Assembly (NCBI GenBank): GCA_030705955.1
Contig: JAUZPL010000001.1
Location: forward strand, 1 to 64,000
Direction: 5' to 3'
DNA from: Bacillota bacterium
Lineage (GTDB): Bacteria; Bacillota; Bacilli; Bacillales; Cytobacillaceae
DNA: 64,000 nt
Under the pieces are notes generated by a model that saw nothing but the letters and a program-made list of their open reading frames with translations, did no database searches and had not been told where the DNA came from. The position numbers were made by a program, and so were the translations under genes. Below, in pieces: positions 5,783 to 64,000 of this stretch. Within the stretch, counting starts at the first letter, position 1. Every line of letters starts with the position of its first letter.

Positions 5783-6046
5783 ATGTCAATAAAACTCATA
5801 AATATAGGATTTGGAAATATTGCTTCTGCGGGTCGAATTATATCAATAGTCAGTCCAGAATCAGCTCCAATAAAAAGAATTATTCAGGATGCACGGGATA
5901 AGGGAGCATTAATTGATGCTACATACGGACGCCGCACGCGTGCTGTTATTGTCATGGATTCGGATCATGTTATTCTTTCAGCAATACAACCCGAAACAAT
6001 TGCCAATAGGCTATATGACCGTGATGAAAATATTGATGAAGGGTAG
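5783..6046 (+). CDS. remA: Extracellular-matrix regulator RemA
   Basis: The 87-aa protein contains [19 protein letters not shown] and [23 protein letters not shown], nearly unchanged from B. subtilis RemA (YlzA). RemA is a DNA-binding protein that forms ring-shaped oligomers and activates biofilm matrix operons and some osmoprotection genes. The frame opens 9 nt earlier, but the second ATG (5783) has GGATGAT at suitable spacing and gives the family N-terminus [11 protein letters not shown]. It sits between the yicC-type gene and gmk, its usual place in Bacillaceae. Confidence 0.93.
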
Positions 6047-6057
6047 TGTTTTTATAA

Positions 6058-6672
<615 letters not shown>

Positions 6673-42718: not shown

Positions 42719-42762
42719 GCGAAAAATCAAGATCCTAACAAAGTCATAAAGAAGGCGAAAAA

Positions 42763-44049
42763 ATGAATCCTATACGTTTACTTCAGGGGATTATAGCACC
42801 AAAGCAAATAAGTAATAATGATCAAACAGGTTTTTCCCTTCGACCAGGTCAAATCATCAATGGCAAGATTTTAAAGCTGTTTAAAAATCAAATGGCTGAG
42901 GTACAAGTAGGCACACAAAAAATGATTGCCAGGCTTGAGGTTCCACTTTCTGCAAATGAACGGTATTGGTTTCAGGTTCAGTCGTCGGAAGGACAAATGA
43001 ATTTAAAATTAATTTCTAAAATAGAAAATACCAATCACACAGAAGGGCTTTTGAATCAATTTGGTTTACCAGCTTCAAAAGAAAATATTGAACTACTGAA
43101 CTTTATCCTTGATCATAAAATACCAATTGAAAAAAATGTATTCCAAGAGGCGTCTGTTTTGTTAAAAGATATAAAGCTGGAGAGTCCCGGAATGAACACG
43201 ATAAAGTTAATGATTGAAAAAGGTCTACCACTGACAAAAAGTATTTTTACATCTTTAATGTCTTTACAAAAAAATGAACCAATCCATCAGTTATTGGAAA
43301 AACTTTTCGTCTTAATCAAAGATAAAGAGCAAACGGACACAACTAGCCAGCTTAGGGAGTTACTAGAAAAACAAATTGGGGTTTTAAATTCTAATAGTGT
43401 TCTGCCATCGCTTGAATCTAGCGATAGTTCAACCTTAAGCAATTATATAAAGCATATGATTCAGGCAATTGGCTATGACTATGAACAAAGTCTGGTTGAG
43501 AAGGGTGCAGATAAAAATAGTGAAATGGAGCTTTCTCTTAAGCCTCTTCTCCTTCGGTTTCTAAATGAGCACCCCCACACGGAACATAAGGCAGTGGCAG
43601 AACAAATTTTAAACCAAATTACGGCACTTCAAATTCTTTCTCACGATACAGGGCCTATACAACAAGTTATCGTGCAGATTCCCCTTTTATTTGGTCAACA
43701 AGGATCTGATTTATTGGTCCAATGGAATGGACGGAAAAAACAAGATGGAAAAATCGATCCAAATTATTGTCGTGTCCTTTTCTACATTGATCTCACACAC
43801 ATTGGAGATACTATTATTGACATGCAAATTAAAAATCGAATAATGTCCATTTCGATTGTAAATGGGAGGGATGATTTAAAAGAAATTGCTTCTCCTTTGA
43901 TTCAATCTTTAAAAGAGGAATTAGAAAAGATGGATTACCATTTGTCATCAATAAAGTTTGCAGAACCATCTGAATCCTCAAACCCAGTATATGGGACAAA
44001 CTCTCTTTATGGAACTAACTCCTATGAAGGTGTTGATTTTCGAATATGA
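42763..44049 (+). CDS. ylqG: YlqG-type protein with FliK-like C-terminal region
   Basis: A 428-aa protein with no signal peptide and mostly helical middle. Its start (RPGQIINGKILKLFKNQMAEVQVGTQKMIARLE) looks like a small beta domain. The C-terminal part (about 302-405: VQIPLLFGQQGSDLLVQWNG, VLFYIDLTHIGDTIIDMQI, then IQSLKEELEKMDYHLSSIKF) has the order of hydrophobic strands and helix seen in the C-terminal domain of flagellar hook-length protein FliK. This is a pattern reading, not a search result. It overlaps ylqH by 4 nt. Function in Bacillus is not known to me. The last 25 residues include a repeated YGTNS. Confidence 0.75.
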   Translation: MNPIRLLQGIIAPKQISNNDQTGFSLRPGQIINGKILKLFKNQMAEVQVGTQKMIARLEVPLSANERYWFQVQSSEGQMNLKLISKIENTNHTEGLLNQFGLPASKENIELLNFILDHKIPIEKNVFQEASVLLKDIKLESPGMNTIKLMIEKGLPLTKSIFTSLMSLQKNEPIHQLLEKLFVLIKDKEQTDTTSQLRELLEKQIGVLNSNSVLPSLESSDSSTLSNYIKHMIQAIGYDYEQSLVEKGADKNSEMELSLKPLLLRFLNEHPHTEHKAVAEQILNQITALQILSHDTGPIQQVIVQIPLLFGQQGSDLLVQWNGRKKQDGKIDPNYCRVLFYIDLTHIGDTIIDMQIKNRIMSISIVNGRDDLKEIASPLIQSLKEELEKMDYHLSSIKFAEPSESSNPVYGTNSLYGTNSYEGVDFRI

Positions 44050-44372
44050 GTAATAAACCATTTGATAAAAGAAAAGAAGCGATAGCTCTTTCCTATAACC
44101 CTAATTATCAGGAGGCACCAACGGTTGTTGCAAAAGGAACGGGCAAAATTGCTGAAAAAATAATTGATACTGCATTGGAGCATGAAATTCCAATTCAAAA
44201 TGATCCAACTCTAGTAAGTCTTTTATCTGAGCTTAATCTAAATGAGAGTATCCCGGAAGAGCTGTATAAAGCAGTTGCAGAGGTGTTTTCATTTATTTAT
44301 AAAGCAGACAAACTAGCAATTCAAAATCATAGAAAAAAAACTATCAATACCTCTACTGAATATTTTGATTAA
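44046..44372 (+). CDS. ylqH: YlqH, FlhB cytoplasmic-domain-like protein
   Basis: A 108-aa protein that resembles the C-terminal cytosolic domain of the type III export gate protein FlhB: ALSYNPNYQEAPTVVAKGTGKIAEKIIDTALEHEIPI, then LLSELNLNESIPEELYKAVAEVFSFIYKAD. FlhB's membrane helices and the autocleaving NPTH motif are absent. It overlaps ylqG translation (ATGA). Such stand-alone FlhB-C proteins are known near rnhB in Bacillus, but their role is unsettled. Confidence 0.82.
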   Translation: MSNKPFDKRKEAIALSYNPNYQEAPTVVAKGTGKIAEKIIDTALEHEIPIQNDPTLVSLLSELNLNESIPEELYKAVAEVFSFIYKADKLAIQNHRKKTINTSTEYFD

Positions 44373-46707: not shown

Positions 46708-47575
46708 ATGGAGGAATTTAAACAAAGGCTTATTCATTTATTGCACTATCCGAATATTACTTGGAAAAATGTCTATCAGACAATAAAAACAGACCCAAAT
46801 CTTTATTCCGTTTATCATCTACATCCACAAGGTTTACCCCAACATACCTTTTCACAAATACCCTCTATCAATAAATCCTTCTCTAACTCACAATCAGAAT
46901 TAGTAAATGAACAAATTCGCCAATATAAAACCAATGATATTAGTGTCGTGACTATTTTTGATAAACAATACCCAAGTCTCTTGAAAAAAATATATCAACC
47001 TCCATGGGCATTATTTGCAAAAGGAGATTTGTCACTCCTTGAAAAAGAACCAATGCTTGCCGTTATAGGTTCAAGACAAGCAACCACATATGGAAAAAAT
47101 GCCATCCGATTTCTTTTTCCATCCATGATTAAAAAAGGCATTATTATCGTGAGTGGTCTTGCGAAGGGAATTGATACCTATGCACATGAAAGTGCAATAA
47201 ATAATGGAGGAAAAACGATTGCAGTCATTGCTGGGGGATTATATCATATATTTCCAAAAGAAAACTTACATTTAGCGATTGAAATGATGAAAACTCAACT
47301 TGTTGTATCAGAATTCCCTCCAGACACAAAAGTGGCATTTTCCGTCTAGAAATCGAATAATAAGTGGCTTGTCAGCCGGAACATTAATTATCGAAGCAAA
47401 ACAAAGGAGTGGTTCATTAATTACAGCCAATTATGCTTTAAATGAAGGAAGAGAGGTCTTTTCTTTACCAGGAAGTATTTTTAATCCATTTTCAAGTGGA
47501 ACAAATGATTTGATTCAGCAAGGGGCGAAGCTTGTAACTAGACCAGAGGATATTTTTGAAGAGATTAGATTATAA
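46708..47575 (+). pseudogene. dprA: DNA processing protein DprA (Smf), interrupted by a frameshift
   Basis: DprA loads RecA on incoming single strands during natural transformation. The first frame (46708-47349, 213 aa) gives the N-terminal domain and Rossmann core: VIGSRQATTYGKNAIRF, VSGLAKGIDTYAHESAI, TIAVIAGGLYHIFPKEN and SEFPPDTK, then stops at TAG 47347. The rest of the conserved motif, KWHFPSRNRIISGLSAGTLIIEAKQRSGSLITANYALNEGREVFSLPGS, continues in the next frame to 47575. The two join near the AAAA run at 47328-47331. The total size, about 289 aa, is near the family norm. It is either a true mutation, a sequencing error, or a slippage site. Downstream is a 323-nt non-coding gap. Confidence 0.88.
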
Positions 47576-55834: not shown

Positions 55835-56230
55835 TTGAAGTTATTTTCTGATACCTTTAATACATTGAATCAAGCTCTAAATTATGCTTCATTAAAGCAA
55901 AAAGTAATTTCTCAAAATATTGCAAATGTTGATACTCCAAATTATAAAGCGAAGGATGTAAGTTTTAACTCCATCTTTCAGAATGAACTAAGCCAGGGCT
56001 TTAGCACGTATAGGACCGATAAGCGGCATATTGATTTTTCAAGTGATTCATCAAGTCAACCGGAAATAATTACTAAACAGAACGTTCAATACAATAATAA
56101 TGGGAATAGTGTTGACATGGATCAGGAAATGTCAGATTTAGCCACAAACCAAATCTATTACGATGCCCTTGTTCAACAGCTAAATAGCAAGTTTTCCAAT
56201 TTACAGGCCGTTATAACAGGAGGGAAATAA
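55835..56230 (+). CDS. flgB: Flagellar basal-body rod protein FlgB
   Basis: A proximal rod subunit. The 131-aa protein has the flagellar rod N-terminal motif SLKQKVISQNIANVDTPNYKAKDVSF and a C-terminal helix (LATNQIYYDALVQQLNSKFSNLQAVI). It starts at TTG behind AAGAGGCG. It is the first gene of the fla/che operon, with flgC 2 nt downstream. Confidence 0.95.
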   Translation: MKLFSDTFNTLNQALNYASLKQKVISQNIANVDTPNYKAKDVSFNSIFQNELSQGFSTYRTDKRHIDFSSDSSSQPEIITKQNVQYNNNGNSVDMDQEMSDLATNQIYYDALVQQLNSKFSNLQAVITGGK

Positions 56231-60467: not shown

Positions 60468-61780
60468 AAGCAGAAGGTCTTCTCGAACACATTCACCAGA
60501 TTGATACTTTTAAACGATATGGAAGAGTCAAAAGAGTGATTGGTTTAATGATTGAATCACAAGGACCCGCAAGCTCGATTGGTGACGTATGCTATATTCA
60601 TGTAGGAAATAACGAAAAACGTAAGATTCAAGCGGAGGTAGTCGGTTTTCGTGAAGAAAATGTTGTATTAATGCCCTATACGACCGTACAGGATATTTCG
60701 CCTGGATGCCTTGTTGAGACTACTTTAAAGCCTCTAGAAATTAAAGTAGGCACTGGTTTAATAGGAAATGTTATTGATTCTCTAGGATACCCCCTTGATG
60801 GCACTCTTTTACCAAAAGGGTTAAAGGCGGTTCCAACTGAATCAGTACCACCAAATCCAATGAAAAGGCCACCGATAAGGGAATCGATAGAGGTGGGAGT
60901 TAGGGTAATTGACAGTCTTCTTACAGTTGGGAATGGTCAGCGTGTTGGTATTTTTGCCGGAAGTGGTGTGGGAAAGAGTACTTTATTAGGTATGATTGCA
61001 AGAAATACAAAAGCTGATATCAACGTGATTGGTTTAATTGGTGAACGTGGTCGTGAGGTAAGGGAATTCATTGACCGGGATTTAGGTGAAGAGGGACTAA
61101 AGAGATCTATAGTTGTAGTTGCCACATCCGATCAACCGGCTTTAATGAGGATAAAAGGTGCGTTTACTGCAACGGCTATAGCTGAATATTTTCGTGATAA
61201 GGGCTTAAATGTCATGCTGATGATGGACTCGGTTACTCGAGTTGCAATGGCACAACGGGAAATAGGATTAGCGATTGGCGAACCACCAACAACAAAAGGG
61301 TATACTCCATCCGTTTTTTCTACTCTTCCGAAACTATTGGAACGAACAGGTACTAACGAAAAAGGTTCTATAACAGGATTTTATACGGTTCTTGTTGATG
61401 GGGATGATATGAATGAGCCCATAGCAGATACGGTTCGAGGAATATTAGATGGGCATTTTGTTTTGGATAGAGAACTAGCGAACAAAGGCCAGTTTCCAGC
61501 GGTTAATGTCCTGAAAAGCATCAGCAGGGTAATGAATCAGATTGTTCCTAGAGAGCATGTAAAAGCCGCAGAAAAGCTAAGAGATATGTTAAGTACCTAT
61601 ATTAATTCAGAGGATTTAATTAATATTGGAGCCTATAAAAAGGGATCCTCCGTGGAAATTGATGATGCAATTAAAATGTATCCCAAGATTATCTCCTATT
61701 TGAAGCAGGAGATAGATGAATCGGTTTCTTTAGAGGAAGGGGTCAGACATTTATTTCAGTTAATAGGAAGTGGTGAATAG
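60464..61780 (+). CDS. fliI: Flagellum-specific ATPase FliI
   Basis: The hexameric ATPase of the flagellar type III export apparatus, F1-beta-like. The 438-aa protein has Walker A GSGVGKST at about 166-173, LIGERGREVREF, Walker B-type NVMLMMDSVTRVAMAQRE and the export-ATPase segment IGLAIGEPPTTKGYTPSVF. It is coupled to fliH by a start/stop overlap and followed by fliJ after 3 nt. Confidence 0.97.
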   Translation: MKAEGLLEHIHQIDTFKRYGRVKRVIGLMIESQGPASSIGDVCYIHVGNNEKRKIQAEVVGFREENVVLMPYTTVQDISPGCLVETTLKPLEIKVGTGLIGNVIDSLGYPLDGTLLPKGLKAVPTESVPPNPMKRPPIRESIEVGVRVIDSLLTVGNGQRVGIFAGSGVGKSTLLGMIARNTKADINVIGLIGERGREVREFIDRDLGEEGLKRSIVVVATSDQPALMRIKGAFTATAIAEYFRDKGLNVMLMMDSVTRVAMAQREIGLAIGEPPTTKGYTPSVFSTLPKLLERTGTNEKGSITGFYTVLVDGDDMNEPIADTVRGILDGHFVLDRELANKGQFPAVNVLKSISRVMNQIVPREHVKAAEKLRDMLSTYINSEDLINIGAYKKGSSVEIDDAIKMYPKIISYLKQEIDESVSLEEGVRHLFQLIGSGE

Positions 61781-62241: not shown

Positions 62242-62841
62242 ATGGATAATGAATTAGAAGCAAAACAAACAAAAAAGGGTAAATCCATTCAATGGTTCAT
62301 ATTTGTTGTATTAATTCCACTTTTATTTACCGTTATAGTTGCCTTGATCATTTGTTTTATTGCCGGAGTAAATGTTTTTGGAATAGCGAAGGATATAGGG
62401 CAAAAAATCCCATTTATAGAGAACTCTAGTCAAAATAACGCTTCCAATCAAAAGAGTGCAAGTGAGAGTGATTTAATTAATTTACAGGCTCAAATAAAAG
62501 ATCGAGAAGCACAAATAGAAGAGCTAAAGACAAACCTGGATAGCAAGGATAAAGATATAGAGCAGGCCAAACTTGATAACCAAAGACTACAGCAGCAAAT
62601 AGATGATTTAAATGCAAATAAAAAAGCAAGTAATTTAGCTTTTAAAGATATTATAAAGACCTATGAAACGATGTCTCCAAAAAAGGTTGCTCCAATCATT
62701 ACAAAGATGGATGATACTGAAGCCATAAAAATACTAGGGGACCTTAAAGCAGATGCACTGGCAGCCATTATGGAAAACATGAATCCAAAGGATGCTGCAA
62801 AATATACACAACTTCTTTCAAATGAGACTGCGACAAAATAA
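62242..62841 (+). CDS. ylxF: YlxF, MotE/MgtE-N-type flagellar operon protein
   Basis: A 199-aa protein with one membrane helix (about 14-42), a coiled coil (about 75-130) and a C-terminal MgtE-N-like domain (IIKTYETMSPKKVAPIITKMDDTEAIKILGDLKADALAAIMENMNPKDAAKY). Related MotE proteins in other bacteria act as chaperones of stator or export proteins; the role in Bacillus is unclear. It lies between fliJ and fliK as in B. subtilis. Confidence 0.88.
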   Translation: MDNELEAKQTKKGKSIQWFIFVVLIPLLFTVIVALIICFIAGVNVFGIAKDIGQKIPFIENSSQNNASNQKSASESDLINLQAQIKDREAQIEELKTNLDSKDKDIEQAKLDNQRLQQQIDDLNANKKASNLAFKDIIKTYETMSPKKVAPIITKMDDTEAIKILGDLKADALAAIMENMNPKDAAKYTQLLSNETATK

Positions 62842-62896
62842 GGTGAAAAGTGTTTTTAGTTTTAAATTTACGCTTTACTTGAAAGGAGGTGAAAAA

Positions 62897-64000
62897 GTGC
62901 AGGTCAGCGGTATTGGAATGACTAGTTCGATAGCTGTAGGTGAGAAAAGCGCCATTTCTTCCAAGGGTACTAATTTTTTGGGACTGTTTGGCTCATTGTT
63001 GAATACCTCAAATAAATCTCAAGAAACAAACTCCTTGAATGGTTTATTTACTAGTTTATCTGGTCAGGACTTAACTAGCTTATTAAGCTTTTTAAAAACA
63101 AATGATTGTTTGGATTTAAATGGTGGGGCCAAGCTTCTAGGCAAGGAATCCGATATGAATAATCCGGAGTTATTGCAAACGATAACTTCATTTCTTGGTT
63201 TAAATGAACAGGACTTAAAAAATATTCTTGAAAAATTAAAATCTTTATTATCGAATGCTTCAGTTGCAACCCCTCAACAAATTGGTAATGAAAGTGATAC
63301 ACTGAATAGTCAATTGAGTCCCTCAATAAAAGATTTAAAAGAAAATAAAACGGATCAGGCAAACAGTCAAAATCGTTTAGAAAATGAACCTCTGAAAAAA
63401 GAGACATCAAGTTTAGGATTAATGGAAGAGTTGATTGCAAGCTTGAATCAAATTATGACATTGCCCATTCAGGATATTTCAAAATTCATTAATCATGACT
63501 TTGTGGAAGGTACAAAGGTTGTTAAATTATATGAGCTTTTGACGAACAACCAGGGCCAAAATGCAACTGACAGTAAGTTGTCACAGGTAATAACTGAAAC
63601 CATTCAAAAGCTTGAAACAATTGTGAATCAAAGTAAGGATGCATCAAGTACTGTATATTTGCAAAAAGCTTATCAATCTATAGCAGAGGATGCGCAAGCT
63701 ACGAATCATACAGTTCAGAATAAAAAGCTCATTACGTTCAAGATAGATAATGGAAGCAGCATCATTCAATTTCAGCAAATGTCTAAGCCGGAACAATTAA
63801 CTATTATGCTTGATAAGGGTGGAAAGCCAGTGTCAGCCGAACAGTTCATTCAACAATTTGAAAATATTTTAGCTAAGAGTCAATTTTCAAATACTGGGGG
63901 AACTCAAAAGCTTTTTATAAAATTGAATCCTGAAAACCTTGGATCTATTCGAATTGAGCTTACACAAAAAGATTCCGGTCTAGTAGCAAAAATAATGACA
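62897..64000 (+). CDS. fliK: Flagellar hook-length control protein FliK (cut by window end)
   Basis: The secreted ruler that fixes hook length and switches export specificity through FlhB. Translation from GTG 62897 is open to the window end (368 codons). AAAGGAGGTGAAAAA directly before it is the strongest ribosome site in this operon. The middle is low-complexity and Ser/Asn/Gln-rich, as expected. Near 339-355 it reads LFIKLNPENLGSIRIEL, matching the FliK C-terminal domain (LxPExLG). The 3' end and the rest of that domain are outside the window. Confidence 0.93.
   Translation, partial: MQVSGIGMTSSIAVGEKSAISSKGTNFLGLFGSLLNTSNKSQETNSLNGLFTSLSGQDLTSLLSFLKTNDCLDLNGGAKLLGKESDMNNPELLQTITSFLGLNEQDLKNILEKLKSLLSNASVATPQQIGNESDTLNSQLSPSIKDLKENKTDQANSQNRLENEPLKKETSSLGLMEELIASLNQIMTLPIQDISKFINHDFVEGTKVVKLYELLTNNQGQNATDSKLSQVITETIQKLETIVNQSKDASSTVYLQKAYQSIAEDAQATNHTVQNKKLITFKIDNGSSIIQFQQMSKPEQLTIMLDKGGKPVSAEQFIQQFENILAKSQFSNTGGTQKLFIKLNPENLGSIRIELTQKDSGLVAKIMT

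Follow-up and report, generated by a model that had tools for sequence, protein, structure and literature searches.

YlqG and YlqH, a FliK-family protein and a free FlhB C-terminal domain encoded together, as a likely accessory pair of the flagellar export switch

The closest described counterpart of YlqH is FlhX, represented by HP1575 of Helicobacter pylori and Cj0848c of Campylobacter jejuni. The title of a study on HP1575 reportedly calls it a 'spare part' for the FlhB C-terminal domain. In excerpts of other reports, flhX is named together with fliK in Nitratiruptor (PMC9321776), and the flagellar gene sets drawn up for Actinobacteria and Leptospira include FlhX (PMC10746217, PMC4758666). 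The export switch itself is best approached here through Salmonella. According to excerpts of a 2026 paper (PMC13344023), early substrates dock at the cleaved FlhB domain, which is lost in a FliK-dependent manner at the switch, and the hook-protein fusion tested is not exported by cells without this domain. Parts of PMC10965912 and PMC13344023 indicate that switching by Salmonella FliK depends on its last five residues and on the fold or core of residues 301-350. The substrate-docking pocket of Salmonella FlhB comprises A286, P287, A341 and L344, as given in a portion of PMC9307174.

The names ylqG and ylqH are those of the preliminary description of this DNA, and other gene names given without a search rest on recognition. 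We take COG2257 to be the YlqH family, and in Bacillus subtilis ylqH presumably adjoins ylqG. COG2257 appears in a portion of a 2006 phyletic study among the families possibly linked to flagella, and excerpts of PMC11523185 show that ylqG exists in B. subtilis. The B. subtilis clones with ylqG P457Q in those excerpts (PMC11523185) were not used as evidence, because other mutations are also present. No title found for ylqH concerned Bacillus flagella, and no title or abstract opening on FliK and FlhB paralogues described a pair of the YlqG-YlqH type. A search that left most subscription papers outside its reach returned nothing on a FliK-type partner of YlqH in Bacilli, on an OB-like domain or on a flagellin-linked copy.

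In the window, meaning the whole stretch of 64,000 nucleotides analysed, ylqG and ylqH are flanked by rnhB (RNase HII gene) and sucC (ATP-grasp/CoA-ligase gene). The following features are used below.

42750 to 42755, plus strand: AGAAGG, probable ribosome-binding site of ylqG, inferred from the sequence
42763 to 44049, plus strand: ylqG, 428 aa, probable FliK-family protein with an OB-like N-terminal domain, a helical middle, a FliK-type switch domain and a disordered tail (basis: open reading frame, AlphaFold2 model, bridging homologues)
42841 to 43023, plus strand: YlqG residues 27-87, predicted five-stranded OB-like domain
43036 to 43638, plus strand: YlqG residues 92-292, predicted helical middle, of variable length among relatives
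43657 to 43968, plus strand: YlqG residues 299-402, predicted FliK/PscP-type substrate-specificity switch domain
44026 to 44032, plus strand: GAAGGTG, probable Shine-Dalgarno sequence of ylqH within the end of ylqG, inferred from the sequence
44032 to 44046, plus strand: VDFRI, the last five residues of YlqG, at the end of the disordered tail; the E. coli FliK counterpart is VDIFA
44046 to 44049, plus strand: ATGA, start/stop overlap of ylqG and ylqH
44046 to 44372, plus strand: ylqH, 108 aa, soluble FlhB C-terminal-domain protein (FlhX type) without NPTH
about 62792 to 64000, plus strand: operonic fliK, running beyond the window (the frame is 485 aa in L004), used as comparison

The preliminary description had placed the two genes as frames with a 4-nt overlap, about 12 kb ahead of the operon that carries fliK. 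Both points were confirmed: the coordinates are correct, the frames share one strand, ATGA lies at 44046-44049, and the operon begins with flgB at 55835 (Flg_bb_rod match), 11.5 kb past ylqH, with fliK further downstream. That the pair lies outside the flagellar operon holds for the window but not in general, since in locus L229 the pair immediately precedes flagellar genes, namely two of the FlgE/F/G rod type followed by flgA, flgH and flgI. Other pairs were found near a seryl-tRNA synthetase-like gene (named by recognition) and elsewhere in L193 and L201. A strict search pattern found no sigma-D-like promoter near ylqG, the only such site in the window being at 60852. Separately, dprA of the window (46708-47575) is split into two overlapping frames (213 and 91 aa), which cover adjoining stretches of one Pfam model, and is frameshifted or mis-sequenced.

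YlqH is a free FlhB C-terminal domain. It matched Pfam Bac_export_2 (PF01312) above the cut-off, over the last 74 positions of the profile (262-335 of 335; E 7e-20), and NCBIfam TIGR00789 flhB_rel with E 1e-31 (108.9 bits, under the cut-off of 117.35). All nine PDB sequences matched at E<=0.01 were FlhB or its injectisome counterparts. With 108 aa in total and a PF01312 match that opens at position 262, the protein has no N-terminal transmembrane domain. Its earlier classification as soluble and FlhB-C-like is supported. In the PDB matches, YlqH residue 12 pairs with residue 274 of full-length FlhB chains, which indicates that YlqH begins about where the self-cleaved FlhB C-terminal domain begins.

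The self-cleavage site and the spacing of conserved residues set YlqH apart from FlhB. None of 171 YlqH-like frames contained N.TH (the NPTH self-cleavage site), while NPTH was present in the flagellar FlhB of all 31 loci, which argues that YlqH does not compensate for a broken FlhB. The stretch from G31 to P70 is one residue shorter in YlqH-type proteins, with 39 residues in 165 of 168 sequences versus 40 in 31 of 31 Bacilli FlhB. The shorter stretch was found in 39/40 primary copies, 18/18 flagellin-locus copies, 78/80 named loci and 30/30 sequences from another phylum. Such a constant shortening points to one old subfamily rather than to repeated decay of FlhB. Much of the docking pocket is retained: the positions of A286, P287 and A341 are kept in 38, 40 and 39 of the 40 primary copies, respectively, and at the L344 position 21 copies have F, 18 have L and one has M. 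Among flagellin-locus copies, the A286 position is A in 12 of 18.

We determined how often YlqH is accompanied by a YlqG-like frame. An upstream partner frame was present for 57 of the 58 YlqH copies examined, a count that includes L129-L131, where the upstream frame is uncertain (L130 and L131 were left out of the YlqG tree). The exact 4-nt overlap was found in 44 of these 57 pairs (the window, L005, L068-L082 and L113-L152). It was also found in 73 of 80 named loci, the best 80 of 579; five of the remainder differ and two are without an overlap partner. Given these two counts, the overlap is more than chance. The pair lies between rnhB and sucC in 65 of the same best 80 of 579. The titles of two records with the pair are doubtful: L185, titled Chryseobacterium sp. 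ISL-80, has a typical Bacillaceae rnhB-ylqG-ylqH-sucC region, and L176 bears the title Bacillus subtilis DE0224 yet shares 86% identity across 9.4 kb with a record labelled Lederbergia (L183). The YlqG of L176 is only 433 aa long. Long frames in L284, L285 and L289 looked like natural YlqG-YlqH fusions and were rejected, being GC-rich readings that precede a normal YlqH start.

The further FlhB-C match follows FlhB in the Bacilli genomes sampled. FlhB was found in 147 of 200 Bacilli genomes, and among the matches listed a further FlhB-C match was present in 132 of the 147 and in none of the other 15; these counts were made by hand from tables, and the further matches listed were mostly short frames. 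Among the matches listed, none of the 53 genomes without FlhB had a TIGR00789 match. Three weak PF01312 matches in genomes without FlhB (G032, G164 and G188; E 8e-5 to 6e-4) were discarded, as none had a TIGR00789 match. A profile of the YlqG C-terminus was present in 10/10 tested genomes with YlqH, and absent from 15/15 flagellated genomes without YlqH and from 22/22 tested of the 53 without FlhB. Weak matches to this profile in G002, G033, G043 and G085 coincide with operonic FliK. Since 15 flagellated Bacilli genomes are missing the pair, it is dispensable. The genomes are related, so that the counts are not independent, and the joint loss of YlqG and YlqH is weak evidence because one deletion removes both genes. 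In one genus, two genomes without the pair (G180 and G199) have operonic FliK proteins of 711 and 728 aa, versus 475 aa in G052, which keeps the pair.

Two other phyla contain equivalent pairs. In the phylum of genome G200, whose locus L229 is titled Proteobacteria, 83 of 148 genomes had a match, 54 with two and 29 with one. Both matches lie in FlhB-length frames in G231 and G310. G246 and G316 have the short-type match only, without FlhB, though either genome may be incomplete. The best 30 loci of this phylum included 22 with an upstream frame, one of which (L264) is unlike FliK, and eight with none. In the phylum of genome G201, 63 of 100 genomes had a match (40 with two, 23 with one), and all of the best 10 loci had an upstream frame, each matched by the bridge profile described below.

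The evidence that YlqG carries a FliK-like end, as first proposed, varies with the comparison made. The direct match is sub-threshold: residues 340-405 matched Flg_hook (Pfam) with E 0.052 and 13.8 bits, against a cut-off of 29.8, and no Flg_hook match at E<=0.1 was found in the Bacilli YlqG proteins of L115, L181 and L183. Reciprocal searches with HMMs of named Bacilli YlqG and operonic FliK gave 0/30 and 0/71 matches. An hhalign comparison of 71 YlqG with 30 operonic FliK C-termini gave a probability of 14 (E 0.002), with seven unrelated controls at 1.2 or below. A more diverse YlqG profile of 41 rows matched operonic FliK in six genomes (E 2.7e-7 to 4.5e-4). In some Bacilli, for example G103, G114, G136 and G147, the ORF that immediately precedes YlqH exceeds the Flg_hook cut-off, as do YlqH partners in three MAG genomes with Nitrospirae in the title. 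All 10 partners tested from the G200 phylum matched Flg_hook, five of them over the cut-off and the weakest with E 0.0037.

These bridging partners, the equivalent pairs from two other lineages, connect the two families. A profile built from 25 of them, with L264 left out, matched 71/71 YlqG and 30/30 operonic FliK proteins. One wrong frame (L103) had been excluded from the FliK set, and four rows that are not YlqG or are fragments (L191, L204, L214 and L216) from the YlqG profile. Together with the predicted structure, the bridging homologues support the assignment of YlqG to the FliK family. Other Pfam and NCBIfam matches of YlqG (SIP1, FolD and choice_anch_R) were far under their cut-offs and were rejected. 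A search of viral contigs for YlqG gave eight pattern matches and no relatives.

The AlphaFold2 model of the window YlqG (pLDDT 85.1, pTM 0.83) consists of a five-stranded N-terminal domain, helices at 92-292, an alpha/beta domain at 299-400 and a disordered tail at 406-428, where pLDDT is under 50. With the whole model, Foldseek returned no match at E<=0.001, the PscP SS domain ranking fifth and the FliK C-terminal domain 19th. Realignment of the whole model to 997 chains with VIA gave these two the best Z-scores (6.2 over 75 and 6.1 over 73 residues, respectively). When the C-terminal piece was searched alone, PscP SS (5cuk) ranked first and FliK-C second, both with a Foldseek probability of 1.00 and with E-values of 0.015 and 0.11. 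VIA Z-scores for this domain alone were 5.9 (75 residues) and 5.7 (74 residues), level with those of unrelated folds, and the full range of 5.7-6.2 is middling. The modelled C-terminus thus bears the structural likeness to FliK that the preliminary description had expected, at weak E-values and middling Z.

The N-terminal part of the protein appears unlike FliK. The N-terminal domain aligned to OB folds with a Z-score of about 5. A profile of this OB-like domain matched 36/40 primary YlqG proteins, 9/17 flagellin-locus copies and 20/26 bridging partners, and it matched 0/30 operonic FliK proteins and gave no match in E. coli FliK. A disordered N-terminal ruler of the FliK type is absent, the window YlqG being modelled with the folded OB-like domain followed by helices.

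At the extreme C-terminus, YlqG and FliK end in a similar pattern. The motif [VILMF][DSNTE]xx[AVILM] closes 50/57 YlqG proteins of the mixed set and 77/77 named YlqG proteins (L191 was left out of this count), as well as 15/22 partners from the G200 phylum and 24/30 operonic FliK proteins, versus 9/532 other long frames. Asp stands four from the end in 55/57 and 73/78 YlqG proteins, 10/22 G200-phylum partners and 7/31 operonic FliK proteins. The Gly codon preceding the terminal Val-Asp is GGA or GGG in 62 of 66 YlqG genes, and the Gly-Val codons double as the putative ylqH Shine-Dalgarno sequence. This overlap weakens a reading of the terminal GV motif as pure protein conservation.

A second pair was found at a flagellin locus of the same assembly. 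On contig C149 (L005:5677-18444), which is presumed to belong to the same organism as the window (contamination estimate 4.53), YlqG2 (779 aa) and YlqH2 (96 aa) overlap by 4 nt. The pair has a flagellin on either side, and the surrounding cluster also contains FliW, FliD, FliS and FlaG genes and one more gene of the flagellin family. A FliS paralogue and a flagellin directly follow the pair, and a sigma-D-like site is located at the end of YlqH2, ahead of fliS2 and the flagellin. A gene for a DUF327 protein (L005:8867-9304) comes after the flagellin of this module, and relatives of it lie near the pair in L075, L077, L079, L080 and L081.

The arrangement recurs in other families of Bacilli. 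Among 17 flagellin-type loci (L005, L068-L082 and L137, the last assigned to the group by its neighbours), a FliS paralogue and a flagellin follow on the same strand in 15. The exceptions are L068, with its flagellin on the other strand, and L079, with no flagellin in the stretch. The sample took 15 of the second copies listed; G036 and G138 are among those left out, as are the second YlqG proteins of G104 and G062. The flagellin-locus copies formed one group in the YlqG tree (17 rows, 100/99) and one group in the YlqH tree (92/76, or 98/94 with L137). The flagellin-locus copies of both partners thus group jointly, which would be most simply explained by duplication or relocation of the two genes as one unit. 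YlqG2 proteins of one family (L070, L074 and L082) reach 1345-1936 aa, with repeated helical units between the ends as judged by eye. A relation of YlqG2 length to its flagellin, as expected of a ruler, was rejected for want of correlation (rho -0.15, p 0.60, 14 loci). In L075, a lone YlqH-type gene (5947-6258), for which no YlqG partner was detected, lies just upstream of the complete second pair.

The distribution and the second copies in flagellin loci support a flagellar role for the pair, which, judging from these sequence comparisons, is most likely a widespread accessory of the flagellar export switch and not a local oddity. The preliminary interpretation, a spare regulatory pair that tunes the switch or a repurposed interaction module, is borne out in part, namely in the two identities and the flagellar role. 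The joint encoding of a free FlhB C-terminal domain and a FliK-type switch domain suggests YlqG as a binding partner of YlqH that would determine when YlqH fills the vacated site. We consider it slightly better than an even chance that the pair is a conserved accessory working in this way, with YlqG controlling whether and when YlqH occupies the export gate. Binding would involve the switch domain and terminal residues of YlqG. YlqG would then set the time at which YlqH takes its place at the gate, most likely once the cleaved domain of FlhB itself is gone, and would thereby tune the transition from exporting hook to exporting filament. The flagellin-locus copy may have become dedicated to a single flagellin together with the FliS chaperone of that flagellin.

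A bolder version of this proposal is a 'reload cartridge', in which YlqG brings YlqH into the site vacated by the action of FliK. This would create a third, flagellin-tuned specificity state or make a switch regarded as irreversible reversible, and flagellin loci would hold a version of their own, fitted to a single FliS and a single flagellin. We regard this extension as possible, though on balance rather unlikely.

The most probable alternative makes YlqH a cytosolic decoy or brake, which would hold the switch domain, either that of YlqG or that of FliK, and prevent early switching until YlqH is titrated away and YlqG acts. Translational coupling through the frequent overlaps (44/57 and 73/80) would give a balanced ratio, as for mutually neutralising partners, and YlqH has neither a membrane part nor NPTH. 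However, a pure FliK decoy would not obviously need the docking pocket, which YlqH largely keeps, and the one-residue difference from FlhB in 165/168 sequences suggests a specialised site of its own. We judge a decoy unlikely.

It is more doubtful still that the pair consists of plain spare parts, with YlqH replacing lost FlhB C-terminal domains, as proposed for HP1575, and YlqG a redundant second FliK. The reported title of the HP1575 work and the start of YlqH close to that of the cleaved domain fit this explanation. Redundant parts should decay, yet the match persists beside FlhB in 132 of the 147 FlhB-carrying Bacilli (among the matches listed) and also in two other phyla, many of whose genomes have it; NPTH is intact in 31 FlhB loci, and the duplication at flagellin loci would be left unexplained. 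A non-flagellar job, in which the pair was repurposed for the rnhB-sucCD housekeeping region, is highly improbable: it agrees with the placement between rnhB and sucC in 65 named loci of the best 80 of 579, but not with the lack of TIGR00789 in 53 Bacilli without FlhB (matches listed) and of YlqG in the 22 tested, nor with pairs at flagellin loci, before rod/ring genes, near the seryl-tRNA synthetase-like gene and in L193 and L201.

In the accessory reading that we prefer, both halves of the export-switch contact are encoded free, in two adjoining uncharacterised genes. The FliK-dependent loss of the FlhB domain, as described in excerpts of PMC13344023, raises the fate of the empty site, and a free FlhB C-terminal domain with a FliK-type partner makes this fate testable. 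Because ylqG is a named gene of B. subtilis, the question is open to a laboratory model. From the flagellin-linked copies it seems that the export switch can be adapted to an individual flagellin.

Compared by their descriptions, FlhX and YlqH are both soluble homologues of the FlhB C-terminal domain that occur beside a complete FlhB. In the excerpted FlhX literature, a FliK-type partner in Bacilli, an OB-like domain and a flagellin-linked copy are not described. YlqG shares with FliK the predicted fold of the C-terminal switch domain, the disordered tail and the terminal five-residue pattern; unlike FliK, it has an OB-like N-terminal domain and, in the modelled window copy, a middle that is folded, and operonic FliK is encoded by a separate gene. 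The best Foldseek match of the YlqG C-terminus is the SS domain of PscP, an injectisome protein (5cuk, rank 1). YlqH has domain homology and docking-pocket residues in common with the C-terminal cytoplasmic domain of FlhB and SctU, from which it differs in having no membrane domain, no N.TH in 171 frames and one residue fewer between G31 and P70.
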